Shown here piece by piece: positions 8,949 to 47,234 of a DNA stretch of 64,000 bases; positions within the stretch are counted from its first letter, which is position 1, and every line of letters begins with the position of its first letter. The stretch is taken from positions 62,001 to 126,000 of the forward strand of contig NZ_CALXRM010000001.1 of the NCBI RefSeq assembly GCF_944390845.1, read 5' to 3'. This stretch comes from an uncultured Brachyspira sp. (GTDB lineage: Bacteria; Spirochaetota; Brachyspiria; Brachyspirales; Brachyspiraceae). The notes below the pieces were generated by a model. It was not told the DNA's origin, made no database searches, and saw only the letters and a program-made list of their open reading frames with translations. A program made the translations under genes and the position numbers.

Positions 8949-8957
8949 AAAATATCC

Positions 8958-19829: not shown

Positions 19830-22800
19830 TTATCCTCTTGATTGTTTGTCTTTCCAAGATTTGATAGTCTTTTCAACCTCATCTCTTGAATATGAAGTAT
19901 TCTTAACTATATCATCAGGTTTCCAACCTTGTTTGTACATTTTTATTATAAGCTCTTCTCTTTTACTGTCTACTTTTTCAGATTTATCTCTCTTGCTTCC
20001 TTTTCCTGGTTTATCTGGCATATACTTATCAGCATTATCAAGCAAAGTTTCTAAATATCTTACGAAATATTCAGCTCTTTCAAGATTTTTAATTATGTTC
20101 TTATCATAATCGTCATACTGATTTTTCATACGAACAAGATTTTCTCTCTGATCTTGTATAGCCTGTATTATATCATCTATTTCCTCTAATTTAGAAATAA
20201 ACAACTGAACTTTTTTATCGTTCTTTTCTATCTTAGCAAAATCTCTCTCTAAAGAGTAAATCTTATCCATAAAGTTCTTTCTGGTATCTTCAACATCAAC
20301 CATAGCAGCTTTTATACTATCAACTCTTTCAAGTATAACCTCTGTTTCAATTTCTGCCTTTCTTACCTGTTGTAATATATCATCAGCATATTCTTCCTTA
20401 TCTTTGATAAATGAAAGTTTATTTTCTATTTGTGATGCTATATCAATAACAAGCTGTATACCTTCTTCAGTATGCTCTATCATAGCATTATTTTCTGCTA
20501 TATGAACAAATCTTTCCTGTATTTCTCCAGACATATCCATAAGCATATTAACTTTTTCTTGAGTATCTTTCAAGCTGTCTTTTTCTTTCTTGATACTGCT
20601 AGCATAATCCAATATTTCATGATGCATTTTCTTCAAGTTTTCAAACTCAGACATAGTTTTATTCATCTCAGTTGTTGTAACTTTAGTATCTTTTACTAAT
20701 TCATTTAATTTAGATACATCACCTTTGATAGATTCTGCCATTTCTTTAGCATTATCGAACACTTTTACAGTATTCATATATTTTGCTATATCCTGGCCTA
20801 TGCCATCTATTTTTACTTTCATAGCATCATATTCTAATGAAATATCATTAGTTTTTGATTCAAGCATCTTATCTATAGAAGAAACAGCATCAGCCAATTT
20901 TACTTTCAAATCTTCTGTTTGACTATCAAAATCTTTAAGTATTACATTTGTTTTTTCTTCATAGCTCAAATTAATACTTTCAAGTCTAGCTTCTATTTCA
21001 GAAGAATATTTAGTAATATCTTCTTCTAAAGCAGATACAATATCCTTCATATTAGTAATTCTTTTATCATATTCATCTAAGTTATCAGCATGTGATTTTA
21101 TTATTTCTTCCTTAGCAGTTTGAATATGAGCTTTAGCATCGTTCATAAGAAGTGATAATGTCTGCTCTAAATTAGAATTAAGTCTGGCTATATATTTTTC
21201 ATATTTCTCATTAGCATTTTCTTCTATAGCATTAACATTTTCTTCTATAATATTATTAGCTTCAGCTATTCTAACATTAACAGCTTCAGATATGGAGTCT
21301 TGTAAAGCTGTCAAAGATTCAGAAAGACCTTCATAATGAGCTTTTAATGCATCAAACTCAGAATTCTTTTCTTCTAATAAGCTATCCATTTTATTAGAAA
21401 CTTCTTCTATTACAGAATCAAATTCTGAAATTTTAGCTTCTATAGTTATCTTAGCATCACTAGATAATTCCTCAAGTCTGATATTGAATTTCTCACCTTG
21501 AGATTCTATATCTTTAGAGTATACATTTATTTTTTCTTGTAACTCTAAAGCTTTTTCTTCTATAAGAGCTTTTAATTTATCCATAGAAGGGGCAAACTCA
21601 TTTTGTAAGTTATTCATCTGCTCTTCAACTTCTTTAAGTTTTTCTTTATTAGCTTCTGCTGAAGTAATAAATTCATCTTTTATACTTAAAGCCTGTTTCA
21701 AATCAGTAACAACATCTTCTACAGAAGAAGTTATATTGAGTTTAGTATCATCTAATTCAGCATGTAATGCTTCTATTCTTTCATTGTATTCTTTATAAGC
21801 CTCCTCAAACAATTTTGAGAATTCCTCTTGGTTCTTCTGATGTCTGTCAGTATAGAATTTTTCAGAAGACAAATACATTTCTTTTAACTTAGCAACTTCT
21901 TCATCATGCATAGTTTTTATTTCATCAACTGCTTTTTCACCTTCAGTACCTATAGACATCTTTAATTCACTCATAAATTCTTCTTGATATGTGTCTATCT
22001 TTTTCTTGAAGCTAGTAATATTATCTTCAAGCTGTTTGTTCATATTATTGAAGGCAGCTGTAATTTTATTATTAATATCGTTTTCTATGCCTTCTATAGC
22101 ACTCTTAACATCAGAGAATTTATCAAACTTCTTCATCTCATTTTCAATGAATGTTTGTACCGTATCAAGTATATGAGGACTAAGCTCATCTGTTTCTTTA
22201 AGTACAGCCTCATTAAATGAAGCAACTAAGCTATTGATAGCCTCTTTAGCTTTAGATACATTTTCAGAAGCAAGTTTATTTTCTAAGGATTTAATATATT
22301 CCTCAGCTTCTTTAATCTTAGTACTGAATGCAGCTTCTTTCTCAGATATCTTCAATGAAGCAACATCAGCAGCCTCAAGTACTGCACTTGTTAAGCTGTC
22401 AATCTTATTACGTATATTAATATCAGAATTCTTAACCATATCCATTAGAGCTTCTCTTTCTCTGCGTACAGTTTCAACTTCCTGAGATATATGTTTTTGA
22501 GACTGACTTAACATTCTAAGTTCATTTTCTTGCTCTTTAATATTAGCTTTTATAGTACCAACCAAAGAAGTAATATCACTTTGAGCTTCATCTATTCTAT
22601 TTATGATGCCTTTAACTTTATCATTTTCTAATGCATCTATCTGTTCTTTAGCTGTTTCAACTTTATCATTGATATCTGCAAGCATTTCAACTGCAGCATC
22701 TCTTAAGTTATCTACTTCAGAAACTATAGCATCTTTATAGAATTCTTTTATTCTTTCTGGAGAAGCATAAGCATCTTCAAAATGAACTATTCTAGCTTCT

Positions 22801-25800
22801 ATACGTTTTCTGAACTCTTCATTTGATTCCTCAAATACTTTTATAATATCATCTCTAAATGAGTCTGTTAGATATCTTAAATCTGTACCTATAGAATCAC
22901 TCTGTATACTTTCGAACATTTCAACTATTTGTTTTCTCTCATCTTCAATCATAGCAGCAACATCTTCTCTGTTCAATACATCGAATGATATTTTGTTCTT
23001 CAAAGCCTCTATGCTGTCAATTATATTGAGCTTTTCTTGATTGAACATACTCATAGTTTCATCTTGTTCTTTTATAAGTTCAACTATAGATTTTCTAAAG
23101 TTTATAAACTCATTAACAAGTCTATCTCTGTCACCTTCAATAGAAGTCAAAGCTTCACCAGAATAAATAGCTCCGCTTTCATATTTAATTCTAAGATTAT
23201 CTATCTCGGCCATTAATCTGTTTCTTTCTTCTTGTAAGGCTTCAGCTAAATCTTTAATATTAGCTATTCTGTCATTGAATTCATTTCTAAATTCACCCAT
23301 TTCTTTAGCTAAAGTATCTTTATATCTCTTAATACTTTCTGAGAAGTCCTGCTCTAATATTTGGAAATCATCTTTAATACGAGCATTATACTCTTGAGCC
23401 ATATTAGCTAAATCATTATTAGTTGGAACAGAACCTAATATCTCATCTCTTAAAGATACGAACTCATCTCTAAGTTCATCTTTTAATGTTTCTTTCTCAT
23501 CTACAAATATTTGACTGATACTATCTAAAGTAGGAACATCTTTGAGCATTTCTTCTTTCATCTCTAACAATTTAGCCTCAACTGCTTCTTGTTCCTTAGA
23601 TAATACTTCAGCAACTGCTTCAACAGTAGAGTAGTTGTCCTCTATATTTTTCTTAAATGATTCTAATGTATCATTTATTCTTACTCTTTCAGCTTCTATA
23701 ATTTTTTCTACATAAGAAGTATCTAATTTACCAGCCTCTATATTTTTAGCAACTTCTGCTTTTGTATTTTCAATATCAGCTGTTACATTTTCCTTATAAG
23801 TATTTATAAGTTTTTCAACTTCTTCTCTTGATATAGATTTATCATTTAAGCTGCTTATCTCTTTTCTTATCTCATCAAATGATGTTTCTAAATTAGCTCT
23901 TTCTACATCTAAAAGATTGTTCAAATTATCTAAATAATCTTTCTTAAGATTTTCAAATCTTTCTTCTGCAGATATATATTCAACTCTTACTGCTGATTTG
24001 AAATGATCTAATTCATTAATCAATTTTGCTTTTTCTTCTTCAAACATCTTAGCAAAATTTCTATTGTCTATTTGAGTATTTATTATCTCATTTCTAAACT
24101 CTTCAAGTTCATTTGCTCTGTCTTCTCTTTCAGATACAAATAAGTCAGCAAGTTCGTCCATATTAGGTACAGAGTCTATTATTTTATTTTTAAACTCTTC
24201 AAGCTCATCTAAAATGCTAACATCTTTTTGAGATATTTCACTAGCTATTCTATCATAAACTTCTTTTTTGAACTCATCTATAGCAGTAAGTAAATCTTTT
24301 TTATCCTTAGCTAATTCATTAGAAAGTTTTAATGTATTTGTATTAAGTTCATTATTTATTCTGCTTATATAAGATTCTAATGCCTTAATTTTTACATCAA
24401 CACCTTTATTAGAACTGCTAATATCTTCTTTAATAGACATTATATTATTTTCTAGGTAATCTATAGTTTGTTTACCTTCTGTTTTTAATGCATCCTGAAG
24501 ATTTATAACTTTAGATTTTACTTTATCTTCATATTCATTTAACATAGAATCTAATTTTTCTTTGTACTTAGCTACTTCAGCACTTAAAGAACCTTGATTA
24601 TATTCTAAGTCTTTTATTCTATCATCAAATGCATTTATATGTCCTTCAATATTAGATATACCTTCTTCCAATCTTGAATCTAAGCTATCTTGTAATTCTA
24701 ATTGTTTATTAGCTATATCTTCCTTCAATGCTTCTATCATAGACATAATTTCAGAATAATTTTCATTATCTAATAAGTTATCCTTAGCATTTTCTAAAGT
24801 ATCATTAATAGCATTAAGATTAGTATCCTTCCAAGAATTCAAATCTCTTTCCATTCCCTCTATCTTGTCTTTAAATTCAGTGAATGAACCATTAAATTGA
24901 TTTTCTAATTCTTGTTTCAATACTGCAAAACTAGATGCTATAGTATCACCGTATAATTCTACAACTCTATTTTCATTAGACCAAACGTCTTCAAAATAAT
25001 TTACACGTTTATCTAATCTATCTTTAAATTCTTTAGAATCTTTTTCTATACTTTCTACTAAATCATTCTTAATAGCTACAACACTATCATTGAAGTTATT
25101 GAATATGCTATCCAATTTTCCTTCTAATCTAGCAAGCTCATCTCTGCTTATATAAGATTTAGGTAAAGAATTCATAACATTATTTAAGTCTTTGTAAATC
25201 TCTTCTTTACTGTCTAATATCTTATCTTCTAGTTTACTGAAGCTTGATATTTGAGGAATTATACTTTCCTTAAATTGTTCTAAGCTATCGCTAAGCTGTT
25301 TGAAGTTTTCATAAATAGCAGCAATTTCCTCTTGAGTTACATTAGTTTCATTGCTTTCTTCTTCCTCTTCTTCATATTCATCAACTTCTTCAGAATCCTC
25401 AGTTTCATCAGCAACTTCTTCTTCCTCTTCTTCATAGTACTCTTCTGCATCTTCTGTTTCATATTCTTCTTCATCTTCAACAGCAGCTAAACTATTCTTC
25501 AATTCTTCCAATTCATTAGAAAGTCTTATAACTTCATCATTCAAACTTGTATCAACACCTTTAACTTTATCTTTTATTGTTGATAAGTCTTTTTCCAAAT
25601 CTTCTATTTTTGAGAAATCCTCTTTAAGTGTATTGAATGATTCTTCTAATCTGTTTCTTTCAGCAATCAAATCACTATAGTCATGATTATCTTTTATAGA
25701 TGTAACTTCTTTCTTGAATTCATCTATAGCATTTGATATCATATTTTTATATTCTATCAAAGTAGATTCTAAATTAGAAACATTATCATCGCTGCTATTC

Positions 25801-28800
25801 ATTCTAGCTGTTAATGTTTCCATTACATCATCTATAGCAGCCTGTATATGTGCTTTTTCAGAATCGAATATAGCAGGTATTCTCTCATCAGCAGCACTTA
25901 AGATATCATCTTTTAATGAAGCAAATGAAGCTCTTAAACCTTCAACTTCTTTTATCAATAGCTCTTTCTCATTTATATAGTACTGAAGCATATTGTTCTT
26001 ATCTAATACTGCATCTTTTATCTCATCAATAGATTTATCAAAATCTTTACTCAAGCTTGAATACTTGTTATCTATTTCTTCTTTTACATTATTTATTTCT
26101 TCAATAAGAGAAGTTTTTACGCTTTCTATATCTTCTAATATATCAGTTACAGAAGAAATTTTCTCACTGTATTCGCCAAACAATGACAATATATGTTCAT
26201 TATTAGATATAAAGTCATTAACTTGAGCTTTAAATCTATCGTCTATATTAGATTTGAAATAGTCAAATTCAGCTGATAATTTAGATATAGAATTATATAA
26301 TTCTTCTTTCTCTAAATCCATTCTATCAGAAACAAATCTAGCCTGAGTTTCTAATTGATTATTTACTTCAGTTACAGAATTTTCTATAGTTTCTAATTTA
26401 TCAGCAATATCCATCAAGCCGTTATAATCAATTTTATCTTTAAATTCATTATATAAGCCCATTAATTCATTTTTAATATTTTCAAATGAAGTTGTTTGCT
26501 TGTCTCTCAATTCTGATTCGTAAGAACTTATTCTATTAACAATTTCTTCTTCTTTATTGACAAGTAAATCATTAATTTGTACTTCTAAATTCTCAACAAC
26601 ATCTCTTAATTTAGCATCAGAATCTTCTAACATTTTAGATACTGCATTATTTATGCTTTGATTCAAGTTATTGAATGAATCATTAAGCATAATATCTAAA
26701 TTATACTTATTCTTTTCAAGTTCTTCTAATTTTTCCTGTATATCAGCATCTACTTTAGAAGAATACTCGTTCAAATAATCATCTATATAAGCTTTATTAG
26801 TATCAACTCTAGCTTTTTCTATTTCTATTTTTAAACTGTCTGAATATTCGTCTAATGCTTTTTTGTTTCCTTCATAAACAGATTCTAACATTTCTGAATA
26901 TTCTTCATAATTAGATATAATGTTTCTTCCAACATCTTCTAATTTAGACATTATAGATTCTGTTTCATCTAATCTATAAGACTCTATGTTCTTCAACTCT
27001 TCTTCATATTTACTAACTGCATCTGATATCATATTATTAAATCTATTAACATCAGAAGTTAATCTTTCTTCTAAGTTAGAAATTCTATCATTAACAGTAG
27101 ATAATTTTTCTTCCAAGCGAGTATTGATTTCGCTTTCTTTGCCAAGTATTTCTTCTTTAATAGAAGCTATCATTTTAGCAATAATTCCATTCTTCTTATC
27201 TTTAGAACTTTCTATAAAGCTGTCAATATTTTCTTTAGCCTCTTTTAATTGCTCTAAAAGAAGAGATAAATTACCATCTTTCCAAATAGAAAGATTGCTT
27301 TCTATTTCATTTACTTGACCTTGTATATTAGACATAATCTCTGACTTAAAGCTGTCAACTTCAGGTCTTATAGCACTTTCATAAAGTTTTAAAGTTTTAT
27401 TAGGATCTGACCAAGTATCTTCAAAATAAGAAATTCTCTTATCCATCAAATCTTTAAATTCTTTAGTACCTGATTCTAATTCATCATATAAAGAATATAA
27501 TTTTTCTCTGTCATCATCAAATAAATCTCTTGAAACTGTATTATCTTCAAGTGAATCTAATTTTTCTTCTAAGCTAAATTTGAAGTCTGCTAATTCATCA
27601 AACAATTTATCAACATCGCTTCTTAAATTAGAATCAACTCCATCTAAATTGCTCTTTAATGTATAAACTTCACTTTCTAAATCGTATAATCTTTCAAAGT
27701 CTTCTCTTAAAGAATTAAATGCATCCTCTAATCTAGCTTTTTCTGCTTCTAATATCTCTATAGAATCATTGTTTTTAAGTTCATCTAATTCATATCTAAA
27801 TGTTTCAATATTTTCTAATATAGTATCCTTTTCATCTGATATAGCATTTTTAAATTCTTCTATATCAGCACTAGAACTATCCATTTTTTCTAATATATCA
27901 TTTGTAAATGAATTAAATTCAGCTTCAATTTTTTCTTTCTCTCTTTCAAATATAGAGTTAATATCTTCTTTGTTAGCATTTAATACTTCTTCTTTGAATG
28001 CTGTGAAGTCTTCTCTTAATTTCTGCATCTGTTCATTATTCAACACTGCACTTTCTAAGCTTACTATCTTTTCATTAAAGAAGTTTCTTAAATTATCATA
28101 TCTTTCATTAACAGCAGCTATTCTTGTGTCTATCTTCTCATGTAAATCTCTGATTCTATCTTCAAATATATTGATATAGCTTTGATTTTTCTCTAAATCA
28201 TATACTTTTTTCTCTAAGATTTCATACTTATCTTCAACAGTAAGAAGTTTACTATCTATTTTTCCATAGAAATCTTTAACTCTGTCTTCTATTTTCTGAA
28301 TATAGTTTTCACCATAAACAACTTCATCAACTTTTTTCTCTATGTTTTCTATAGTTTGAGAAACTTTTTCATTTGATGATTCTTCAAACTTACTCATAGA
28401 TTCATTAAATTTAGCTTCTAAATCTTCAACAGATATTTTTACAATATTATCTAATTCTTCTTTAGCAGAATCTAATATGTTCATCTTATCTGAAACTTGA
28501 GATTCTAATTTCTCTATGCCTTCTATAGTTTGAGAAACTTTTTCATTTGATGATTCCTCAAACTTACTCATAGATTCATTAAATCTATTTTGTAAATCTT
28601 CAAAAGATGATTGTAATATTTTATCTAAATCTTCTTTAGTAGAATCTAATATATTCATCTTATCTAATATCAAAGAATCTAATCTTGAAGAATAATCTTT
28701 TAAGTATTCATCAATACGTTCTCTTTCATTAGCTAGATGCTTATCTTCAATTCCTTTTATAGCACTATCTATCTCATCTTTAATAGAATCTGAATAATCT

Positions 28801-37800: not shown

Positions 37801-40800
37801 TCATTTTCAGATATGCTTACTCTTTCCAATACATTATTAGCAAACTCTTCAAATGCATTTTCTATTCTTTGTTTTTCTTGTTCAAATAGAGTAGGTATAT
37901 CTGCTCTATTAGCATTTAATACTTCAGTTTTAAAATTGTTGAATTCTTCTTTAAGTTCATCTATTTTACCAACTAAAGATTCTCTTTCTGAAGCTTGTAA
38001 ATCTAATAATTCATCTCTATCAAGTATAGAGCTTTTTACCATATCTAAAGATTCTTCAAAATCTATATTCAATGATTTATATTGATTTTTGAGTTCTGAT
38101 ACATCTTTATCTAATCTTGAAACAACATTGTATATTTCACTATCAACTTTAGAATTGATAGAAGCTAAATGTGTTTCTAACTCTGACATATATTCATTAT
38201 AATTGAATAATTTATCAGATACTTCTTGTTCCAATTTAGACACAACATTATTAATTTTGCTGTCTGCTTCTTCATTAAACTTAGATATAGCTTCATTCAA
38301 ATTAGTATTTAATGTCTCAAATGATTGTTTGATCATATCATCTAATTGATTTTTACTGTCATTTAATACATTAATTTTCTCTGATATTTGATTATCTAAA
38401 TTATCAGCATATTCTTTCAAATAATCATCTATATAGTTTTTCTCACCTTTAAGATGTTTATCTTCTGCTTCTTTTCTAGCATTCTCTATTTCAGCTTTTA
38501 CTCTATTTGTATACTCTGATAATGAGAATAAAGAATCTTTATAAGTAGTATTGATTAATTTAGAATAATAATCATATCCTGCTTTAATATCTTCTAATAA
38601 TTTAGCACTTTCTTCATCACGGTAATGTTCTATATTTCTAATATCTTCATCATATTTAGATACAGCAGCACTTACCATACCTTGAACTTCTTCCAAGTTT
38701 CTAGCTATATCATCTGATACTTTATCATTTAAAGAAGACAATCTATTTTCTATATCTTCAATTTTTGAATCTATTCTAGTATAGATATCATTTTCTTTTT
38801 CTTCTATTTTAGAAAGTATATCTGAAAGCAATTCTTCTTTTTTATCATCAGTGAATTCCAAGTATTCATTAATGCTTTCTTTAGCATTTTCTAATTGCTC
38901 TAACAAGTCATTAATACGTCCGTCTTTCCAGCTAGATATATCTTTATCTATAGAATCTATTTTGCTGCCTAAATCATTAAGATAATTTTCAAATTTAAGT
39001 TCTGTTTCTTTCTGAACTTCTTCTAACTCATTTCTCATTTCAGAAATATACAAACTTCTTATCTTAGTATTATCAGACCAAGTATCTTCGAAATATGTTA
39101 TGCGTTTTTCTAATCTTTCTCTGAAGTCTATACTGTCATTTTTGAAGTTATTGAATAATTCATCTAATTTTTTAACTTCTTCAGCAAATAAACCTTCAAG
39201 AGTTCCATTTCCGCCTAATATATTGATGATATTATCTTTCATTGAAGATATTTTATTTTCTAATTCTTCTTTATCTTTTAATAAATTATCTTCTAATTCT
39301 GAAGATTTATCTAAAGATTCATTGATAGCATTTCTAACTAAATCAATATCTTCATTTAGATTATTCATATTAGATAATATAGCACTTATATTGTCCTCAT
39401 GATTATTGATGCTATTTTCAAATTCTTCAAATTTTTCTGACAAATTAGCAACTTTATCTTTCAAATTAACATCAACATTTTGCATATTATCTTTTAATTC
39501 ATATAAACGACTCTCTAAATCTCCTAATTTAGCAAAATCATTTTTGATTGAATTAAATGATTCTTCCAAAGTTTGTTTTTCTAAAGCTAATTGAGCAACT
39601 ATATCATCTTGTCTTATAGAATTAACTTCAGCTCTTAAATTATCAATTTTTTCTAATAATGTTAATTTATCCTCTGATAAGATATCTTTTATATAATTGA
39701 TATCGCTTTCTGAATTATTTACTCTATCTAATAAATGATTAGTAAAGTCTTCAAAAGCAGCTTCTATTCTCTGCTTTTCTTCTTCAAATAGAGCAGACAT
39801 ATCTTCTCCGCTTGCATTGAAGGCATCGTTTTTGAAGCTGTCAAATTCATTTTTAAGTTCATCTAATCTATTGATTAATAAATCTTTTTCTGAAGTTTGA
39901 AGTTCTAATAATTCATCTCTATCAAGTATAGAGCTTTTTACCATATCTAAAGATTCTTCAAAATCTATACTTAACTCTTTATATTTGTTTTTCATATCAG
40001 ATATTTCACTATCTAATCTTGAAGAAACATTATAAATTTCATTATCTATTTTAGCATTGATATCTCTTAAGCTGTCTTCCAATTCACCTATGTAATTTTG
40101 ATAATTAGATAATCTTTCAGATGCATCTCTTTCCAATCTTTCAATAGTATCGTTTATTCTGATATCAGCATCTTCATTGAATCTCATTATAGCTTCGTTT
40201 AAGTTATCATTCAAAGTATTAAATGATTCTCTTATCATGTCATCTAACTGATCTTTACTTTCATTTAATATATTGATTTTTTCATTAACTCTTTCATCTA
40301 ATCTTGATTCATATTCTTTTAAATAATTATCAATATAATTTTTCTCATTATTTAAATGTTTGTCTTCTGTTTCTTTTCTAGCTTTTTCTATTTCAGCTTT
40401 TATTCTATTAGTGTAGTCAGATAAAGAAGATAATGAATCTTTGTATGTATTATTTATCAATTTAGAATAATAATTATAACCAGATTGTATTTCTTCTAAT
40501 AATTTGCTATTTTCTTCAGCTCTATGATGTTCAATATTTTTTATCTCTTCATCATATTTATTTATAGCTTTATTAACTATAGATTGTACTTCTTCCAATC
40601 CTCTAGCCATATCATCTGATACTTTACTATCTACATTAGATAATCTATTTTCTATTTCTTCGATTTTTGAATCTATTTTAGTATAGATATCATTTTCTTT
40701 TTCTTCTATTTTAGAAAGTATATCTGAAAGCAATTCTTCTTTTTTACCTTCAGATGATTCTAAATAATCGTTGATACTGTTTTTAGCATCTTCTAACTGC

Positions 40801-43800
40801 TGAAGCAATTCATTAATACGTCCGTCTTTCCAGCTAGCTATATCTTTATCAAGAGAATCTATTTTTTCTTTAAACTCATTAATATATTCATCTCTCCAAG
40901 AAGAAGCGTCATTATTAATAGAATCTATTTTTGATTTTAATTCATCAATATAATTCTCTAATTTTATATCAGTTTCAGCTTTTATGCTTTCTAATTCTTC
41001 TCTTAAATCAGCTGCATATAAGCTTCTTAATCTGCTGCTGTCTGACCAAGTATCTTCAAAGTAATCTATACGTTTTTCAAGTCTATTTCTAAACTCAAAG
41101 TTATCTGTTTTGAAGCTATTAAATAATTCATCTAATTTTTTAGCTTCTTCAGCAAATAGATTTTCTATATTCTCATTTTTACCTAATACAGTAAATAAAT
41201 TTTCTTTTATTGATGAAAATTTATCTTCTAATTCTGAAGATTTAGTTAAAGAATCTTTTATATGATTTTTTATTATTTCTAAATTATCATATAAGTTGTC
41301 ATATCTATTATCATTGTCAGCAACAACTTTTCCTTCAAAGTCCTCAAATCTTTCATTTAATTCATATAAACCGCTTTCTAAATCGCCTAATTTTTCAAAA
41401 TCAGCTTTGATAGTATTAAATGAATCTTCTAAAGTTTGTTTATCTAAAGCTAATTGAGCTATAGTATTATCTTCTTTTATTGATTCTACATCTTTTTTGA
41501 TATCATCAATTTTTTCTAAAAGTGAAGATTTATTTTCTGCTACAACTTCTTTTACTTTATTAATATCAGTTTCAGAAATACTGATTCTATCTAATAAATT
41601 AGCACTAAATTCTTCAAATGCACTTTCTATTCTCTGTTTTTCTTCTTCAAATAGAGTAGGAATATCTTCTCTGTTAGCATTGATTAATTCTTCTTTGAAA
41701 GAATTGAAATCTGTTTTCAAAGTTTCCATTTCTTCAGCTAACATTTCTTTTTCAGAATTTTGCAATTCCATCAATTCATCTCTATCAAGAAGAGAACCTT
41801 TTATCATATCTATTGCTTCATCGAAATCATTACTTAAATCTTTATATTTAGATTTAACATCTGATATTTCAGCATCTAATTTTGAAGAAATTTTATAAAG
41901 CTCATTATCTACTTTTACGCTAATAGCTCTTAACTGCTCCTCTAAATCAGACATATATTTCTGTTCATTGAATAATCTAACAGCTGCCTCATTTTCCAAT
42001 CTTTCAACAACAGAATGTATCTGAGTATTAGCTTCTTCATTAAACTTATTCATTACATCTTGTAAATTAGCATTAAGAGTATCGAATGAGTCTTTTATCA
42101 TATTATCCAACTCGACTTTACTGTCAGTTAATATGTTTAATTTATCATTAACCTGAGACTCCAATTTTGCTGAATAATCCAACAAATAGTCATCTATATA
42201 ATTTTTCTCATTAGATAAATGTTTTGCTTCTGATTCTTCTCTTGTTCTTTCTATCTCTTTCTTTATAGTTTCAAGATGAGTTTCTAATTCTGTAACAGCA
42301 TCTTCATAGATTTTGTCTATCATTATAGAATATTCTTCATAGTCTTCACGTATGCTATTACCTAATTCTTCAATATCTGCTATTAAATCTTCTGTTTCAT
42401 TAGCTCTATGATGCTCTATTCTCTTTATTTCTTCATCATATTTAGCTACAGATTCATTGATTCTGTTATGGATTTCTTCTAAGCTGTTTCCTATAGCATT
42501 ATTTAATTTTTCATTTATAGTAGAAAGTTTATTTTCAGCATCTGCAATTCTTTCATCTATGCGTGAATAAACTTCATTTTCTTTAGTTTCTATACGGTTA
42601 AGCATATCAATAAGAAGCTGATTTTTCTTACCTTCTGAAGTATCGATAAAGCTTTCTATTCCTTTTCTAGCTTCTTCTAATTGAGCAAGTAAAACATTTA
42701 AATTACCATTCTTCCAATCGTATATATCTTGCTCTATTAACTTCATTTTTTCTTTTAATTCATTCAAATGATTATCATATTTGATATCAGCTTCTTTTCT
42801 TATATTTTCAACTTCTTCTCTTATATCAGCAGCATACATGCTTTTGATTTTAGTATTATCAGACCACATATCTTCAAAATAAGAGATACGTTTTTCAAGT
42901 CTGTCTTTGAAGTCTTCATTGTTTGAAGCTAAATTTTCAAATATAGAATTTAATCTTTCTTTTTCACCATTTATTAATGATTCAAAATAGTTTTTATCTA
43001 CTAGACTAGATATATTATTTTTTACAGATTCAAAATTTCTATTAAGATTTTCCATATCTCTATATAGACCATCTGAATCTTTTTCTATTCTATCTTCTAA
43101 ATTATCTTTAAAATCTTTTAATTTTTTAGTTAAATCACTAACATCATCTTTTAATCCGCTGTCGATTCCTTCCATTCTGTTTCTGAGTTCAACAAAATCT
43201 TTTTCTAAATTCATTATTTTGTCAAAATCATCTCTCAAAGCAGTTAATGAATTTTCTAATACAGCTTTTTCTTCTGATAAAACTTCAACTGTATTATCAT
43301 CTTTCATATCATCAACGTCTTTTCTTAAAAGCTCTATTTGATATATCAAATGACTTCTTTCTTCTGATAAAACATCTTTGATATAATGTATATCGCTTTC
43401 ATTGTCTGTAAGTCTCATAAGTAAATTCTTACTGAACTCATCAAACATATTTTCTACTCTTGCTTTTTCTTCATCAAATAATGCTGGTATTTCTAATTCA
43501 TTAGTTCTTGCAATTTGATCTTTGAATAATTCAAATTCTTCTTTTATATCATCTATTTGATTTTTAAGTAATTCTTTTTCACTATTTTGAAGATTAATTA
43601 ATTCTTCTCTGTCTATTATAGAAGATTTTATCTGTTCTATTCTGCTATTAAAGTCTTCATTACTATCTGATATATTAGAACTTAATTCATCTATTTTTTC
43701 AGATAAAGCTGATTTCACTTCTTCTATCATATTAGAAAGTTCATTAACTTTATCTAATCTATTATCATGATCATCTAATATAGCAAGAATGTTTTCATTA

Positions 43801-46800
43801 TTAGATATTAATTTATCTGCCTGATCTTGTAATCTTTCATCAACATTATCTTTTAAAGAAACAAATTCATTTCTCAAATCCTCTAATGTTAAGCCAAGAG
43901 TATCTCTAACTTCTGCTGCTGTATTAGATATAACTTTTTCAGCATATTTTTTGATTTTAGCAATAGAACGCAAAGCCTTTTTAGTATTAGCTTTTCTTAT
44001 TTTAGCTAATATTTTAGAGAATCCGTTATATAAAGTATTAAATGAATCATTTAAATTTTCATTCAAACGATTAACTTCTTCATCTATTTTTGAAGATGTT
44101 TTATTCAAATAATCATCTATATAGTTTGCCTCATTAGTAAGGTGTTTAGCTTCTGATTCTTCTCTAGCTTTTTCTATTTCATCTTTTAATGCATTAACAT
44201 GCTCGCTTAAAGAATTCTTTTCATTTTGATAAAGTTCTTCAAGCATATTAGTGTACTGTTCATAATCTTTTCTTATTCCAGCACCTATATTTTCAACATC
44301 TTTTATTATATTATCATGTTCTTCTAATCTATAAGTTTCTATTTCTTCTATTTCGCCTTTATATTTCTCTATAGCACCATCAATTAATGCTTTTAACTCT
44401 TCTAATTTTCCTAAAGCACTTTCTTCTACATTAGAGAATATACCTTCTGTTTTCTTAGCAATTTCATCTTTTTTATCTGCTATATAAGAATCAATTTCAT
44501 TTGCTTTAGAATCAACAATAGACTGCATATTATTAGCATTATCAATTATTTCGTTGATTCTTTCGCCCAAATTTTCTATACGCATTTTATATTCATCTGT
44601 CATTAAAGAAGCATGATGTTTTAATTCTTCATAATCTTCTTTTAAGTTATTAGAATACTTTTCAAGCATTGCATGATATTCAGCACTTATAGCATTCAAA
44701 TCAGATCTTCTTTCATCTAATACGCCGTCTATTTTTTTGTCCAAAGAATTATATTTATCCTCTATATCAGACATTAATTCTTTTTCTTTATCTTCTGCAT
44801 TTTCATAAACTTTATTTATAGTACGCTCAAATGCATCTCTGCCGTTTTCAACTCTATGCATGATATCTTCTATTTCATCTTTTATTTTATTCATGCTGTC
44901 TCTTTTTTCGTTTAGAAGTATATCAAATGAGTCTGTAGCCTGACGAAGCTCATCATGAAGCATATCAACAACTTCTTTTTTGTTTTCTTCATTGAATCTT
45001 ACATTTTCGTCTATTGCTTCATCTATTTTATTTTTAAACTCGCCTAAAGAATTTTCTATATCACTGATTAAAGCATCATGTCTTTTTTCACTTTCATCAA
45101 CTTGGTTCATAACAGAATCAATACTGTCTGTAATAGCTTTCATTTTAGTTTGTTCATAATCATCTAAAACGTTTTTCAAATGAGCTTTCAAACTTTCTAT
45201 ATAAGCATCACTGTAATCAGATATTTCTTTTTTAATGCCTTCCATTTTATCTTCAGCATCTTTTATACCAGTATCTAATTTTTCATTAGCTCTGCTTATT
45301 AAGCCATTAACTTCAACAGAAGATTTTTCTAATAATTCTATACGTTTTTCTATATTTTCTCTTATGTTAGCTTCAGTTTCTTTGCTTAAAGTATCTATAT
45401 CTGTTGTAGCTTTGTCGTACTGTTCTTTTAATCCAGATAATTTTTCATCTATAGCACTTAAATCAGATGAAGTATTTTTGATATATGTATTAATATTTTC
45501 TTCTAATTCATCTTTAACACTAGCAAGTAATGTTTCTATTTCATTTATTCTTTCATTAGCCTGAGCTTCTAAATCTTTATACAAATATTCTTTCTGCAAG
45601 CTCAAAGAATCAAGTATTTCTTCCTGTTTATTATTAAGTATAGATATTATCTCAGAAGTTTGATAATGAGTTTCATCTATTTTGTCTTTCAAAAGATTAG
45701 TTTCAGTTTCAACATCGTTTCTAAGCTCATTGATTTCAGCTATTAAAGAACTTCTAGCATTATCTATAGAGTATTCCATATCATCTTGAGCTCTAGTTAA
45801 TATATCATTTTTCAATTTATCTATATCATTAACTATATCTTCAAATCTGCTTTCAGCTTTAAGCATGGTTTCTTCGCTCATACCATCTATAGATATGATT
45901 AAATCATTAAGTTCTTTAGTTTTATTTCTATAAAGAGTTATTACGCCGTCATCTTCATTTTCAAGTACATTCTTGATATGATTAGAAAAATTCTCTACTT
46001 CAACTATAAATCTATTATTAATATCTTCTTTTAATGAAGAGAACTCTGTTTCTAACTGATGAGCTTTATCAGCATAATCTTTAGTTATATAATCAGCTTT
46101 ATCTTTTATATCATCTATAGACTTCTCTAAAGAATGGGCTTTTTGTTCTATAGAATCTAAGAATTCCTCTCTATCCTGGCTTATTTTCTCAAGTCCTTCT
46201 TTTAGGGTAGAGTAGAGCATCTCTTTAGTTTTTTCCATTTCGTCTTTAAACTCTAATACGCTAGATTCTGTTATAGAGTTTAATCTATCATGTATAGTAT
46301 CTCTTAAACTGTTCAACTCAGTTTCTAAGCCTTCTTTAGACTGACTTAAAGTTTCATAGCGGTTTTCTATATCTTTAGATTTAACATCAATTTCATCGGC
46401 GAATGACGAATATTTACTAATAAGCTCATCTCTTCCTTTCTCAAATAATTCTGCCAATTGTTCTATATTGTGACGGGCTGTTCTTTCAGCAAGCTGAGTA
46501 AGCTGATTTGTAAATAATTCTTCTTTTTTAGCAACATGAAGCTTAAATTCTTCAGTAAGAGCAGATATTTTCTCTTTTTCTTGTTCTGCCATAGTGCTAT
46601 AATGAGCATCACGGGCGAGTAGGTTAGTGGTAAGAGCATCAAATCTCTTATAAAGCTCACTTTCAAACTCATTTAACTTAGAATTATAAGACTCTATTAA
46701 TTTATCCTGTATAGAACCAACATTCTTTTCTAATTCTGTCATTTTGGCTTTAACATCAGATATTCTTTTATAGGTCTTTTCTATAGTGTTACGCTCTTTT

Positions 46801-47171
46801 AATACAGTATCAACCTTATTCAATATTTCCAAATAAGCTTCTTCTAAGGAATCAACCTGTTCTTGGTACTGTGATACAGCGGCCTTATAGTCTTTATATG
46901 ACTCTATCCTTTTATTAAGTTTAGCTAGATCCTCTTCCATAGACTTACTTATAAATCCAGCCTTTTTAACTGCTATTTCCAAATCTATGGCATTGTCTCT
47001 AACTTCAGATATCTTTTCCTCTACAATACCTTCCAAAGCTGCTTTTTCTTCAGCAAACATTTGATTAAAATTATTATCATTATAGTTTTTTTTCCTATTG
47101 ATTACACTATAAATACCGATAAATAATAGAGGTACAACAAAAGTTAGTATTAATTGAAGAACAGGGTTCAT
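19830..47171 (-). CDS. Giant membrane-anchored coiled-coil repeat protein (SpiroCoCo-type), about 9,113 residues
   Basis: One uninterrupted frame of 27.3 kb. An N-terminal hydrophobic segment (about 5-22, LQLILTFVVPLLFIGIYSV) followed by NRKKN predicts a single anchor with the body in the cytoplasm. Almost all the rest is Glu/Lys/Asp/Ile/Leu heptad coiled coil. About 11 diverged units repeat every 600-800 residues, each with markers such as YFEDTWSD, SWKDxRINELLxQLxxAK and NYIDDYLxEY. An acidic segment (about 7227-7273) interrupts the coil. The last about 45 residues (REELIIKMYKQGW ... SRDEVEKTIKSW) look like a small helix-turn-helix-type bundle. I noticed only one cysteine (EKCDSL). The start is ATG 47169-47171, with GGAG at 47180-47183; an ATG at 47204 overlaps the promoter. 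RefSeq uses the name SpiroCoCo for such spirochaete proteins, as I recall. Role unknown; a scaffold or ruler is possible. Confidence 0.9.
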   Translation of the reverse strand: MNPVLQLILTFVVPLLFIGIYSVINRKKNYNDNNFNQMFAEEKAALEGIVEEKISEVRDNAIDLEIAVKKAGFISKSMEEDLAKLNKRIESYKDYKAAVSQYQEQVDSLEEAYLEILNKVDTVLKERNTIEKTYKRISDVKAKMTELEKNVGSIQDKLIESYNSKLNEFESELYKRFDALTTNLLARDAHYSTMAEQEKEKISALTEEFKLHVAKKEELFTNQLTQLAERTARHNIEQLAELFEKGRDELISKYSSFADEIDVKSKDIENRYETLSQSKEGLETELNSLRDTIHDRLNSITESSVLEFKDEMEKTKEMLYSTLKEGLEKISQDREEFLDSIEQKAHSLEKSIDDIKDKADYITKDYADKAHQLETEFSSLKEDINNRFIVEVENFSNHIKNVLENEDDGVITLYRNKTKELNDLIISIDGMSEETMLKAESRFEDIVNDIDKLKNDILTRAQDDMEYSIDNARSSLIAEINELRNDVETETNLLKDKIDETHYQTSEIISILNNKQEEILDSLSLQKEYLYKDLEAQANERINEIETLLASVKDELEENINTYIKNTSSDLSAIDEKLSGLKEQYDKATTDIDTLSKETEANIRENIEKRIELLEKSSVEVNGLISRANEKLDTGIKDAEDKMEGIKKEISDYSDAYIESLKAHLKNVLDDYEQTKMKAITDSIDSVMNQVDESEKRHDALISDIENSLGEFKNKIDEAIDENVRFNEENKKEVVDMLHDELRQATDSFDILLNEKRDSMNKIKDEIEDIMHRVENGRDAFERTINKVYENAEDKEKELMSDIEDKYNSLDKKIDGVLDERRSDLNAISAEYHAMLEKYSNNLKEDYEELKHHASLMTDEYKMRIENLGERINEIIDNANNMQSIVDSKANEIDSYIADKKDEIAKKTEGIFSNVEESALGKLEELKALIDGAIEKYKGEIEEIETYRLEEHDNIIKDVENIGAGIRKDYEQYTNMLEELYQNEKNSLSEHVNALKDEIEKAREESEAKHLTNEANYIDDYLNKTSSKIDEEVNRLNENLNDSFNTLYNGFSKILAKIRKANTKKALRSIAKIKKYAEKVISNTAAEVRDTLGLTLEDLRNEFVSLKDNVDERLQDQADKLISNNENILAILDDHDNRLDKVNELSNMIEEVKSALSEKIDELSSNISDSNEDFNSRIEQIKSSIIDREELINLQNSEKELLKNQIDDIKEEFELFKDQIARTNELEIPALFDEEKARVENMFDEFSKNLLMRLTDNESDIHYIKDVLSEERSHLIYQIELLRKDVDDMKDDNTVEVLSEEKAVLENSLTALRDDFDKIMNLEKDFVELRNRMEGIDSGLKDDVSDLTKKLKDFKDNLEDRIEKDSDGLYRDMENLNRNFESVKNNISSLVDKNYFESLINGEKERLNSIFENLASNNEDFKDRLEKRISYFEDMWSDNTKIKSMYAADIREEVENIRKEADIKYDNHLNELKEKMKLIEQDIYDWKNGNLNVLLAQLEEARKGIESFIDTSEGKKNQLLIDMLNRIETKENEVYSRIDERIADAENKLSTINEKLNNAIGNSLEEIHNRINESVAKYDEEIKRIEHHRANETEDLIADIEELGNSIREDYEEYSIMIDKIYEDAVTELETHLETIKKEIERTREESEAKHLSNEKNYIDDYLLDYSAKLESQVNDKLNILTDSKVELDNMIKDSFDTLNANLQDVMNKFNEEANTQIHSVVERLENEAAVRLFNEQKYMSDLEEQLRAISVKVDNELYKISSKLDAEISDVKSKYKDLSNDFDEAIDMIKGSLLDRDELMELQNSEKEMLAEEMETLKTDFNSFKEELINANREDIPTLFEEEKQRIESAFEEFSANLLDRISISETDINKVKEVVAENKSSLLEKIDDIKKDVESIKEDNTIAQLALDKQTLEDSFNTIKADFEKLGDLESGLYELNERFEDFEGKVVADNDNRYDNLYDNLEIIKNHIKDSLTKSSELEDKFSSIKENLFTVLGKNENIENLFAEEAKKLDELFNSFKTDNFEFRNRLEKRIDYFEDTWSDSSRLRSLYAADLREELESIKAETDIKLENYIDELKSKIDSINNDASSWRDEYINEFKEKIDSLDKDIASWKDGRINELLQQLEDAKNSINDYLESSEGKKEELLSDILSKIEEKENDIYTKIDSKIEEIENRLSNVDSKVSDDMARGLEEVQSIVNKAINKYDEEIKNIEHHRAEENSKLLEEIQSGYNYYSKLINNTYKDSLSSLSDYTNRIKAEIEKARKETEDKHLNNEKNYIDNYLKEYESRLDERVNEKINILNESKDQLDDMIRESFNTLNDNLNEAIMRFNEDADIRINDTIERLERDASERLSNYQNYIGELEDSLRDINAKIDNEIYNVSSRLDSEISDMKNKYKELSIDFEESLDMVKSSILDRDELLELQTSEKDLLINRLDELKNEFDSFKNDAFNASGEDMSALFEEEKQRIEAAFEDFTNHLLDRVNNSESDINYIKDILSEDKLTLLEKIDNLRAEVNSIRQDDIVAQLALEKQTLEESFNSIKNDFAKLGDLESRLYELKDNMQNVDVNLKDKVANLSEKFEEFENSINNHEDNISAILSNMNNLNEDIDLVRNAINESLDKSSELEDNLLKDKEELENKISSMKDNIINILGGNGTLEGLFAEEVKKLDELFNNFKNDSIDFRERLEKRITYFEDTWSDNTKIRSLYISEMRNELEEVQKETELKFENYLNDLGSKIDSIDKDISSWKDGRINDLLEQLENAKESINEYLEFTDDKKEELLSDILSKIEEKENDIYTRIDSKIEDIENRLSSLNDKVSDDIARNLEEVQGMVSAAVSKYDEDIRNIEHYRDEESAKLLEDIKAGYDYYSKLINTTYKDSLFSLSEYTNRVKAEIENARKEAEDKHLKGEKNYIDDYLKEYADNLDNQISEKINVLNDSKNQLDDMIKQSFETLNTNLNEAISKFNEEADSKINNVVSKLEQEVSDKLFNYNEYMSELETHLASINSKVDSEIYNVVSRLDKDVSELKNQYKSLNIDFEESLDMVKSSILDRDELLDLQASERESLVGKIDELKEEFNNFKTEVLNANRADIPTLFEQEKQRIENAFEEFANNVLERVSISENDINYIKDALSEDKAALLENIDNLKEELSSLREDDAITQLTLEKQALEESLNSIKEDFAKLEDLENRLYELKDNMEDADVNLKDKVSGLADKFEELETSMKEDRDNIRNDIRASIDRSVELESNILKDREELDRKISSMRDNLVNILGDNENIEGLFASEVKKLDELFNNFKNDSIEFRDRLEKRITYFEDTWSDSTKIRSLYASEMRNELEEVQRETELKYENYLNELNNKIDLIDKDITSWKDTRINELLQQLENAKQDIANYLDTTEGRKDELVSDVLAKIEDKEASIYSRIDTKIEDIENRLSVLDDKVSDDIARNLEEVQAMVNEAVNKYDEDIRNIETYRTEEGNKLLEDIKTGYEYYSKLINNTYKDSLSSLSDYTNRIKTEIENARKEAEDKHLKGEKNYIDDYLKEYADKLDSQISEKINILNDSKNQLDDMIRESFNTLNTNLNDAILKLNEEADSKINSVVSKLEQEVSDRLFNYNGYISELENHLASINSKIDNEIFNMSSKLDKEVSELHEKCDSLSIDFEETLDMVKSSILDRDELLELQSSEKELLASRIDELRNEFDNFKEEVLNANKEDIPTLFEEEKQRIEAAFEDFTNNLIDRVNTSESDINYIKDVLSEDKLTLLEQIDNLRAEVNSIREDDIVAQLASEKQALEESFNSIKNDFAKLEDLENRLYELKDNMEDVDIVLKDKVSSLADKFNEFENKAKETKEYFDNTINEQNNNINNIYSNIDNLNNNIANANTNIDYVRNLINDSLVKSSELENNILKDKEELEQKIASMKDNLINMLGDNENIEGLFTNEVKKLDELFNNFKNDNLEFRDRLEKRITYFEDTWSDSTRIRSLYASEIRNELEEVQKETELKYENYLNELNNKIDLIDKDISSWKDTRINELLQQLENAKQDIANYLDTTEGKKDELVSDVLAKIEEKENSIYNRIDTKIADIESRLSVLDDKVSDDIARNLEEVQGMVNSAVSKYDEDIKNIEHYRTEEGNKLLEDIKTGYDYYSKLINTTYKDSLSSLSEYTNRVKAEIENARKEAEDKHLKGEKNYIDDYLKEYADKLDSQISEKINILNDSKNQLDDMIRESFNTLNTNLNDAILKLNEEADSKINSVVSKLEQEVSDRLFNHNEYISELENHLSSISSKVDSEIYNVVSRLDKEVSELQDKYKSLNIDFEETLDMVKSSILDRDELLELQASEKELLVSRIDELKEEFNNFKSEVLNTNKENIPTLFEEEKQKIENAFEEFTSNLLERVNTSESDINYIKDILSEDKLTLLEQIDGLREEVNNLREDDAITQLTLEKQALEESFNSIKDDFAKLEDLENRLYELKDNMEDVDINLKDEVATLSNKFEELENTINDDRDSIKDDIRASIERAAELENNILRDKEELENKISSMKDNLVNILGDSGTVEGLFANEVKKLDELFNNFKNGSIEFRDRLEKRITYFEDTWSDSTRIRSLYASEMRNELEEVKKETALKFENYLNDLNNKIDSINEDISVWKESNINELLGQLENAKQDIAAYLDTTEDNKNKLVAEVLSKIEEKENSIYTKLDEKIADIENRLSETDSKLNNDIGSNLDNLYTMLNNAIAKYDEDIKNIENYRTAESDKLAEDSKKLIDELKASYDNYSNLINETYNNSLNSLTDYSKLVREEIEKSREESEAKHVSNEKNYIDDYLKDYSNKVDSQISEKINTLNNTKEELDKMIKDAFGNLEANMQNVISNFERESNSKILEVIARLEEDAKTVIFDKNEYSIYLTEQLGIIYKKIEDEISKVNEKIDSNVSKVDFDIDTFNTKVSDDITSIIEKYEALSKDLDESLDVLKNSILDRNELLEMHASEKEVLVSKVDELKKEFDSFKDEILSSTKEAIPTIFEEEKQKIENAFEEFSSTLLDRVNTSESDINYIKDLLYEDKTFILEQIENLRDELASVRDDDAITQLTLEKDALEESFNAIKDDFAKLEELESSLYQLKDNMSDVDVNLQDEVKELSSKIEELDSKIREDVSRDLEDYSNDLSALNSNVNTLNEYIESIKANIQDSLDKSSQLEETISKDREELENRLSAIKDNLLSVSGQNDGIESLFNEEVKKLDILFEKVRNDNLEFRDRLEKRIEYFEDSWADSSRIRNLFSSDIRDEIENVKSDTELKFENSINELREKMDSMNDDIAVWKEEHINSMNAKMESMNSDLNTFKEEYLNELKSKIDSMDSDILTWKDGRINELLSQLEEAKNNISNYIDNSDVKAEKLLTDILSKIEEKENTIYNKLDEKIADIENRLSETDSKINEDISSNLDNLHTMLNNAIAKYDEDIKNIEHYRLDENNKLMEDSQKLIEDIKSNYENYSNLINEAYNNSVNSLTDYSNTIKEEIEKSREESESKHLSNEKNYIDEYLREYSEKIDNQIAEKMSVLNEAKEELDNMVKESFDNLENSFNEAIAKFSDETNDKVLEVIEQLERDTESVLFNKYMATLSKDIEAITEKLNSETVDLRNKYDSLSSDFDEAVEIIKNSIIDRDELISLHNDEKNALVERLESIKNDFESFRESTLKFNDNVPTLFEDKKNEIEHVFEEFTRAVVERVDASDDEVNRLKDIISSDKLDLLEKLDNLELELESVKKDNTIEQLALEKKALEDSFNAIKSDFSKLERLESNLYQLKENMSDVDVFLKDEVKALSDKLSDFEGRMKDDIVRDLDEYSIELGNLTSHVNKLTSRIDDVKTQIEDNINKSSELESIIYTEKEELDNKLASIKEELMTNSNNNEAIEELLTQEREKLNDLFNQIKDDNKEFRYRLEKRVSFFEDTWADSRKLKNIFASDIREQLDDIRNDNEIKFENSINYLKSKIESLDNDISTWKEGHVDELVQQLDEARESISNYLNESEVKGKKIVDNLLSTIDEKEKYINETLEIRVQDIENRLAAMDSKLNNDISGNLENLYNMVNEAVSKYDDEIKNMEHYRLDENNKILDDIDNVGKEIRSTYENYSKLINEVYDNSLNSLKDYSDSIKDEIDSAIKGIEDKHLANERERIDEYLKDYSSRLDSLILDKMNILDSTKEDLDKILQSSFEDLQNRFNESMSKFEESSNEKVSQTIEGIEKLESQVSDKMNILDSAKEELDNIVKISVEDLEAKFNESMSKFEESSNEKVSQTIENIEKKVDEVVYGENYIQKIEDRVKDFYGKIDSKLLTVEDKYEILEKKVYDLEKNQSYINIFEDRIRDLHEKIDTRIAAVNERYDNLRNFFNEKIVSLESAVLNNEQMQKLREDFTAFKEEVLNANKEDINSIFEREKEKIEAEFNSFTNDILEKMDSSSADIEEFKNAISDEKDTILENIETFRYELDELKNNDSIEILEAEKARLEDAFNSLREDFERLYDLESEVYTLKSNLDGVDSNLRSDVDKLFDELADFKFSLEEKLDSLEDNTVSRDLFDDDREKLYSLYDELESGTKEFKDLMDKRISYFEDTWSDPNKTLKLYESAIRPEVDSFKSEIMSNIQGQVNEIESNLSIWKDGNLSLLLEQLKEAKENIDSFIESSKDKKNGIIAKMIASIKEEILGKESEINTRLEEKLSTVNDRISNLEERLTSDVNRFNNMISDAVSKYEEELKNIESYRLDETESIMSKLEDVGRNIISNYEEYSEMLESVYEGNKKALDEYSDSLKIEIEKARVDTNKAYIDDYLNEYSSKVDADIQEKLEELEKNKYNLDIMLNDSFNNLNQSINNAVSKMLEDSDAKLRDVVENLEVQINDLLVNKEEEIVNRISSYESELRDKQTTSFENIKNELMGLYNEFKDKIDYNGLMDIADKLETIENSVTEVNNQLETQARFVSDRMDLEKEELYNSISKLSAEFDYFKSNIDDRFKAQVNDFISNNEHILSLFGEYSEKISSVTDILEDIESVKTSLIEEINNVKEEIDNKYSSLSKDFDKSIDEIKDAVLDKNNMLQYYINEKELLIKEVEGLRASFASLKDDILSAADERIPAIFDSEKAHIQAAIDDVMETLTARMNSSDDNVSNLESTLIEYKNMISNAIDEFKKEVTSIKDNHDYSDLIAERNRLEESFNTLKEDFSKIEDLEKDLSTIKDKVKGVDTSLNDEVIRLSNELEELKNSLAAVEDEEEYETEDAEEYYEEEEEEVADETEDSEEVDEYEEEEEESNETNVTQEEIAAIYENFKQLSDSLEQFKESIIPQISSFSKLEDKILDSKEEIYKDLNNVMNSLPKSYISRDELARLEGKLDSIFNNFNDSVVAIKNDLVESIEKDSKEFKDRLDKRVNYFEDVWSNENRVVELYGDTIASSFAVLKQELENQFNGSFTEFKDKIEGMERDLNSWKDTNLNAINDTLENAKDNLLDNENYSEIMSMIEALKEDIANKQLELQDSLDSRLEEGISNIEGHINAFDDRIKDLEYNQGSLSAEVAKYKEKLDSMLNEYEDKVKSKVINLQDALKTEGKQTIDYLENNIMSIKEDISSSNKGVDVKIKALESYISRINNELNTNTLKLSNELAKDKKDLLTAIDEFKKEVYDRIASEISQKDVSILDELEEFKNKIIDSVPNMDELADLFVSEREDRANELEEFRNEIINTQIDNRNFAKMFEEEKAKLINELDHFKSAVRVEYISAEERFENLKKDYLDNLNNLLDVERANLETSFDEIRKEISSLNDKSISREEVEKLINTYKENVTADIENTKAEVAKNIEAGKLDTSYVEKIIEAERVRINDTLESFKKNIEDNYSTVEAVAEVLSKEQEAVEAKLLEMKEEMLKDVPTLDSISQIFVDEKETLKDELRDEFVSLRDEILGSVPTNNDLANMAQEYNARIKDDFQILEQDFSESIKRYKDTLAKEMGEFRNEFNDRIANIKDLAEALQEERNRLMAEIDNLRIKYESGAIYSGEALTSIEGDRDRLVNEFINFRKSIVELIKEQDETMSMFNQEKLNIIDSIEALKNKISFDVLNREDVAAMIEDERKQIVEMFESIQSDSIGTDLRYLTDSFRDDIIKVFEESNEEFRKRIEARIVHFEDAYASPERIKEFYKDAIVSEVDNLRDAAVEMLADINDKVETAKEQIDALENDKVKGIINRIDEAQSDITSLVGTIKANIKEQENELRMLSQSQKHISQEVETVRREREALMDMVKNSDINIRNKIDSLTSAVLEAADVASLKISEKEAAFSTKIKEAEEYIKSLENKLASENVSKAKEAINSLVASFNEAVLKETDELSPHILDTVQTFIENEMKKFDKFSDVKSAIEGIENDINNKITAAFNNMNKQLEDNITSFKKKIDTYQEEFMSELKMSIGTEGEKAVDEIKTMHDEEVAKLKEMYLSSEKFYTDRHQKNQEEFSKLFEEAYKEYNERIEALHAELDDTKLNITSSVEDVVTDLKQALSIKDEFITSAEANKEKLKEVEEQMNNLQNEFAPSMDKLKALIEEKALELQEKINVYSKDIESQGEKFNIRLEELSSDAKITIEAKISEFDSVIEEVSNKMDSLLEEKNSEFDALKAHYEGLSESLTALQDSISEAVNVRIAEANNIIEENVNAIEENANEKYEKYIARLNSNLEQTLSLLMNDAKAHIQTAKEEIIKSHADNLDEYDKRITNMKDIVSALEEDITKYSSEIEARLESINLSYEEKTNVILKDFDSQTEDLKVKLADAVSSIDKMLESKTNDISLEYDAMKVKIDGIGQDIAKYMNTVKVFDNAKEMAESIKGDVSKLNELVKDTKVTTTEMNKTMSEFENLKKMHHEILDYASSIKKEKDSLKDTQEKVNMLMDMSGEIQERFVHIAENNAMIEHTEEGIQLVIDIASQIENKLSFIKDKEEYADDILQQVRKAEIETEVILERVDSIKAAMVDVEDTRKNFMDKIYSLERDFAKIEKNDKKVQLFISKLEEIDDIIQAIQDQRENLVRMKNQYDDYDKNIIKNLERAEYFVRYLETLLDNADKYMPDKPGKGSKRDKSEKVDSKREELIIKMYKQGWKPDDIVKNTSYSRDEVEKTIKSWKDKQSRG
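22770..42900 (-). repeat. Internal repeat array of the giant gene, about 11 units
   Basis: The codons for the FEDxW(S/A)D marker fall near 42.86, 41.04, 39.08, 37.22, 35.27, 33.42, 31.42, 29.38, 27.41, 24.98 and 22.77 kb (residues about 1430, 2035, 2695, 3310, 3963, 4580, 5247, 5925, 6585, 7393 and 8130). Spacing is 607-677 residues for the first nine and 735-809 for the last. The units between 33.4 and 39.1 kb are closest. About 265 bases around 34.42-34.69 kb and 36.38-36.64 kb are identical by eye, and a near-copy lies at 38.2-38.5 kb. The outer units are much more diverged, implying repeated duplication in the middle. Confidence 0.85.
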
Positions 47172-47205
47172 AGAAAAAACTCCGCAAATATAGTATATTA
47201 ACATA

Positions 47206-47234
47206 ATTCTATATTATGTTAATGTATATGTCAA
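47206..47234 (-). promoter_or_regulatory. Strong sigma-70-type promoter of the giant gene
   Basis: On the minus strand: TTGACA (47234-47229), a 17-base spacer, TAGAAT (47211-47206). The start would be near 47199, about 28 bases before ATG 47171. This excludes the upstream ATG at 47204 and supports the chosen start. Confidence 0.75.

Follow-up and report, generated by a model that had tools for sequence, protein, structure and literature searches.

One coding sequence on the minus strand takes up 43% of the stretch of DNA from the gut spirochaete Brachyspira analysed here (64 kb as a whole, referred to as the window). This raises the question whether a frame of such a size is genuine and, if so, what its product does in a cell that bends its thin body by internal flagella, a mechanism whose cytoplasmic side is poorly known.

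A reading frame of 27 kb

An uninterrupted ORF spans positions 19830..47204 of the minus strand and from its first ATG would yield 9,124 aa. Most likely ATG 47171 is a better start than ATG 47204, as a GGAG lies 8 nt upstream of it, homology with relatives starts at this codon, and the promoter ends at 47206, directly adjoining ATG 47204, which places the latter at or before the expected start of the transcript. From ATG 47171 the product comprises 9,113 aa (1.06 MDa, pI 4.5, net charge -977) and its composition is helix-forming, with 0.3% Pro, Cys near zero, and Glu plus Asp far above Lys plus Arg. The promoter is sigma-70-like and not of the flagellar type. The following features were assigned:

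47206..47234, minus strand: sigma-70-like promoter, TTGACA-N17-TAGAAT, 11/12 consensus positions
47180..47183, minus strand: Shine-Dalgarno-like GGAG, 8 nt 5' of ATG 47171
19830..47171, minus strand: giant SpiroCoCo coding sequence, 9,113 aa, likeliest start ATG 47171 (alternative ATG 47204)
47100..47165, minus strand: transmembrane (TM) anchor followed by NRKKN, from sequence; orientation predicted by the positive-inside rule
46491..47150, minus strand: SpiroCoCo_N domain (NF047514)
22785..42881, minus strand: tandem array with 11 copies of a YFEDxW-type motif, spaced 606-810 aa, mean about 670
25341..25478, minus strand: acidic stretch, residues 7243-7288, private to this genome among the Brachyspira compared
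19863..20843, minus strand: SpiroCoCo_C domain (NF047515)
19839..19976, minus strand: HTH-like tail of three helices; a DUF6115 protein encoded in the same genome has a homologous tail

The second big ORF of the window (1904-7720, minus strand) encodes 1,938 aa.

The single open frame, which a preliminary description had read from the DNA, is real and was confirmed from end to end. Intact orthologues of 7,089-7,877 aa are present in other Brachyspira, several of which have single-contig or near-finished genomes, and dN/dS against close relatives was 0.09-0.16 in the three parts compared (N terminus, repeats and C terminus), indicating purifying selection. Almost all Brachyspira tested harbor one SpiroCoCo copy per genome. 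That repeats were mis-assembled into a giant frame is extremely improbable: although the genome is a draft of 133 contigs, the gene contains an exact repeat of 268 nt, and the frame is split in a few relatives, the repeat copies within the gene are 77-89% identical in DNA and hence not false duplications, frames of more than 7,000 aa are unbroken in several single-contig or near-finished genomes, and purifying selection is strong. In the relatives concerned (G007, G012 and G024) the frame is split once, by either sequencing error or true disruption.

The product belongs to the SpiroCoCo family

In the NCBIfam scan the protein matched SpiroCoCo_N (NF047514) at residues 19-238 with 154.5 bits (cut-off 75) and SpiroCoCo_C (NF047515) at residues about 8788-9114 with 207 bits (cut-off 125), and between the two domains lies a long helical body with a period of 3.650. 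By both domain models the giant protein is thus a SpiroCoCo member, a strikingly large variant of an already named spirochaete family. Neither this membership across the phylum nor the internal repeat that explains the length (see below) was part of the preliminary description. In the literature searched, no functional paper was found for "SpiroCoCo" or for BB0512, TP0408 or LA3659. NF047514 and NF047516 (LA_3659_fam) returned identical scores and are seemingly one model with two cut-offs, so that short and long members may carry different names. A contig profile search with an alignment narrower than the phylum gave named matches in Brachyspira and two spirochaete MAGs only, and no relatives were found in viral contigs. 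Matches to SMC, Rad50 and ZorA were far under the cut-off and were rejected as generic coiled-coil noise.

Members share an N-terminal TM helix, a basic stretch of the type (F/Y)RxxDKxNRSxEK, a long coil and, at the C terminus, a tail of the form QGWxxxDIxKxTxxSxxEVELII. The single N-terminal membrane anchor, the nearly all-helical body and the small C-terminal domain of the earlier reading were all upheld. At the N terminus of the giant protein no signal-peptide n-region was detected; based on the uncharged N-terminal flank and the basic residues following the TM helix (positive-inside rule), an N-out orientation with the coil in the cytoplasm is predicted. The acidic hinge that had been listed among the design elements did not stand: with 29 of 40 residues acidic, against at most 16 of 40 in the other Brachyspira proteins compared, the stretch is missing from all of these and was ruled out as a conserved element.

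The giant protein resembles its relatives in TM anchor, coil, HTH-like tail and a hydrophobic period of 3.64. It differs from them in size, as members outside Brachyspira mostly have about 800-3,400 aa, and in its 11 marked units of ~665 aa and the private acidic insert; the marked unit was not detected in the other relatives tested outside its own family. Tandem pairs of SpiroCoCo paralogues were observed in two families, one of 2,786 and 1,304 aa (L044:1936-14232) and one of 3,014 and 1,377 aa with an overlapping junction (L049:3057-16225).

A tandem repeat accounts for the variation in length

Eleven YFEDxW-type markers are distributed between residues 1442 and 8141 of the giant protein. 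Among ten Brachyspira proteins, length followed the number of markers (length = 665 x markers + 1,804, r = 0.998). Its intercept corresponds to the size of relatives without markers in the neighboring family (1,765 and 1,935 aa). Other Brachyspira genomes have 3-9 copies; the count of 11 in the present draft is provisional because of the exact 268-nt repeat. The simplest account is that tandem duplications lengthened the rod within the lineage of Brachyspira. In the sister genus G057 a member of 3,597 aa (L125) carries two markers 871 aa apart. The two copies look closely alike, and this tandem duplication of 871 aa seems to be an independent expansion.

The helical body has a period of 3.65 residues

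The body had been described as a near-continuous heptad coil. This was rejected, since the hydrophobic period of the giant protein peaked at 3.65 (power 10.2) and not at 3.50 (power 2.9). A period of 3.63-3.65 was detected in every member tested, from 807 to 9,124 aa, with a power of 7-17 as compared to at most 2.6 in shuffled sequences, and two unrelated proteins encoded at the same loci had no such peak. One turn of an undistorted alpha-helix takes 3.63 residues, and hendecad coils are almost free of supercoil (PMC9858780). The match to this value suggests a near-straight rod with little supercoil, and with its conserved period of 3.64 the family may serve as a model for coiled coils that are straight and not built on heptads. 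Dimeric hendecad coils require small residues such as Ala (PMC9858780). In the giant protein the core positions make up ~27% of residues and are 58% ILVMF and 4% Ala; this low Ala content favours a higher oligomer, and the rod is probably an assembly of more than two chains.

The micrometre scale proposed earlier also holds for the contour, which would measure ~1.37 µm as one extended helix. Structure prediction, which had been suggested as a check, agreed in part: AlphaFold modelled one repeat as an almost continuous helix, but with short breaks and at low confidence (pLDDT 63), and a single straight rod of the full contour length is therefore not established.

The C-terminal tail is related to DUF6115 proteins

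For the last ~46 residues AlphaFold predicted a three-helix HTH (pLDDT 85-89), and structure and profile searches with this tail returned DNA-binding HTHs, e.g. RcsB (profile E 7e-4) and resolvases. The tail also aligned with that of a DUF6115 membrane protein encoded in the same genome (hhalign E 2e-7). The latter is a protein of 296 aa (L085:2677-3564, minus strand) composed of TM helix, coil and HTH-like tail. Across the family the charge of the tail ranges from -4 to +3 and is not conserved, a feature that speaks more for a protein than for DNA as the partner; Brachyspira tails have a charge of +1 to +3 and are preceded by a Lys-rich linker.

SwrB of B. subtilis is, as we assume, the DUF6115 (PF19610) protein of that species. 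It crosses the membrane once and acts as an activator of flagellar export (PMC4526659). Like the giant protein, DUF6115 proteins combine an N-terminal TM helix, a cytoplasmic coil and a homologous HTH-like tail. However, the one example has a few hundred residues, neither SpiroCoCo_N nor the repeats are known from DUF6115 proteins, and Brachyspira encodes its DUF6115 protein separately, beside the giant one. PF19610 was not among the matches of the giant protein, which by the Pfam cut-off is not a DUF6115 protein, though its tail is related. One short SpiroCoCo relative barely passes this model (27.8 vs 27).

SpiroCoCo co-occurs with flagellar genes

SpiroCoCo_C matches were obtained in 274 of the 295 spirochaete genomes sampled. 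Family f43, with 26 genomes, contributed seven of these, all at chance level (E about 1e-4 to 1e-5), and nothing better. The remaining 267 come from the 269 genomes outside f43. FlhA was detected in 268 of 295 genomes, those without it being all from f43 among the genomes listed (seven are not listed), and FliG was missing in 26/26 f43 genomes and found in all others tested. After reconciliation of the lists, about 266 genomes have both SpiroCoCo and FlhA and 26, all f43, have neither. About three drafts, 92-94% complete, are discordant (FlhA only in G132 and G299, SpiroCoCo only in G284), G299 and G284 being assigned partly by elimination. In four genomes of genus g69 in family f39 (G131, G180, G208 and G260) FlhA is present, the FliG match is only weak, and the SpiroCoCo_C match has diverged strongly.

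Sphaerochaeta is the one spirochaete clade reported to be without flagella (PMC3739177), and on this basis f43 is probably Sphaerochaetaceae; f43 has probably lost the helical cell shape as well. The co-occurrence is suggestive of a tie between SpiroCoCo and the flagellated cell plan; as the absence from f43 may be a single loss, it amounts to one evolutionary contrast. A relation to periplasmic flagella, as raised in the preliminary description, gained support from the co-occurrence with FlhA, with one qualification: as the coil is predicted in the cytoplasm, any flagellar link would have to span the inner membrane or operate at it.

Gene neighborhood and expression

The gene stands alone in Brachyspira and no conserved flagellar neighbors were found. 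In 22 of the 27 Treponema/Borrelia/Spirochaeta-type genomes fetched, a gene for an HAD-IA hydrolase lies upstream of SpiroCoCo on the same strand (immediately adjacent in 21), and it does so in 4/4 others. Its product carries an FDIDGTLYP motif and the gene often overlaps that of SpiroCoCo (loci L086-L089, L090-L116). No comparable HAD-IA match was obtained in Brachyspira, nor in those deep families that were tested, and the hydrolase is kept in the flagella-less f43, which is without SpiroCoCo. This patchy pattern points to a lineage-specific operon, and the arrangement was set aside as weak evidence on function.

A protein of B. pilosicoli annotated as "Apolipoprotein A1/A4/E domain-containing protein" ranks third in abundance among the surfaceome-specific proteins (306 PSM), in a list where RNase Y, YajC and AtpF stand close to it (PMC4955376). 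Since Apolipoprotein matches in both B. pilosicoli-type genomes that were scanned are confined to the SpiroCoCo gene, this protein is probably the SpiroCoCo orthologue.

Proposed role and alternative explanations

Because SpiroCoCo was found in virtually every flagellated spirochaete sampled and not in the relatives that lack flagella, we propose that it probably helps to organise or stiffen the moving, wave-shaped cell. The reading to which we give about an even chance is that of a cytoskeletal strut or tether, a near-straight SpiroCoCo rod in the cytoplasm that is anchored in the membrane and tied to the flagellated cell plan. It builds on the computed family membership, repeats, periodicity, purifying selection and distribution; the topology, oligomerisation, straightness in the cell, docking and mechanical role are what we infer from these. 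The single-pass anchor would fix the N terminus in the inner membrane, and the hydrophobic stripe, running almost parallel to the helix axis, would allow chains to assemble into a near-straight rod along the cytoplasmic face of the membrane. At the far end the SwrB/DUF6115-like tail may dock on a partner, so that the rod could help the thin cell body carry or place its periplasmic flagella. In Brachyspira it would have been lengthened in units of ~665 residues (~100 nm) by tandem duplication.

The tail could instead bind DNA, the coil then linking the chromosome to the inner membrane. The HTH fold, the DNA-binding proteins returned by the searches and the positive Brachyspira tail behind its Lys-rich linker speak for such a tether. 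We nevertheless regard it as distinctly unlikely, as the tail charge varies across the family, the last helix is acidic in most members outside Brachyspira (GEVELILE-type), the nearest tail homologues found are DUF6115-type membrane proteins, and the loss in the flagella-less family is left unexplained. Unlikely, but to a lesser degree, is an enlarged SwrB-like factor acting directly in flagellar assembly or placement, by activating basal bodies at the cell ends or giving them their position, with the rod as spacer or ruler. Its layout would be that of the Brachyspira DUF6115 protein, and the co-occurrence with FlhA and the flagellar numbers given below are in its favour; yet a separate DUF6115 protein is already present in the same genome, a flagellar operon context is lacking apart from loose proximity in one T. 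pallidum-like genome, and the trend in flagellar numbers comes from a handful of species, whose phylogeny confounds it.

An amphipathic helix of the apolipoprotein or perilipin type, coating the inner face of the inner membrane in place of a coiled coil, would account for the 11-residue-like periodicity, the weak but recurrent Apolipoprotein matches and the fact that what is probably the orthologue in B. pilosicoli fractionates like a membrane protein. We consider it improbable, given that the net charge and pI disfavour binding to an anionic membrane and that the core is that of a typical coil. For Apolipoprotein A1/A4/E (PF01442), one tile of 1,500 aa scored 96.5 (cut-off 90), the other two tiles tested were below, and the genome scan gave no match above the cut-off. 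The likeness, visible in Pfam and PDB matches, lies in the amphipathic periodicity and is read as a periodicity match. The giant protein is mostly below the cut-off, highly acidic and without a lipid-transport context. FilP and Scy of Streptomyces are likewise long cytoplasmic hendecad-rich coils with a scaffolding role near the membrane. They have a DivIVA-like N-terminal domain and an Ala-rich dimeric core, whereas the giant protein has a TM anchor and an Ile/Leu core poor in Ala, and Pfam and NCBIfam scans of its N-terminal 1,500 residues gave no DivIVA match.

The strut reading can be extended to a more specific one, which is tentative and, in our view, doubtful: a micrometre-scale, nearly supercoil-free, single-chain-type cytoplasmic strut, whose length would be set by the number of ~100-nm repeats and track the number of periplasmic flagella, as a spirochaete-specific cytoskeletal class that co-evolved with internal flagella. 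The B. pilosicoli-type protein has 6 markers (5,588 aa) and that of the murdochii-like G016, possibly B. murdochii itself, has 9 (7,673 aa). Flagella per cell end number 4-6 in B. pilosicoli and 7-14 in B. hyodysenteriae (PMC2897892), and 11-13 in B. murdochii (PMC3035287). That repeat number tracks flagella number is a lead from few species, confounded by shared ancestry. Near-universal in the flagellated spirochaetes sampled and missing together with flagella, SpiroCoCo is a direct target for studying the cytoplasmic side of spirochaete bending, and the natural Brachyspira variants with 3 to 11 repeats make the effect of length testable.
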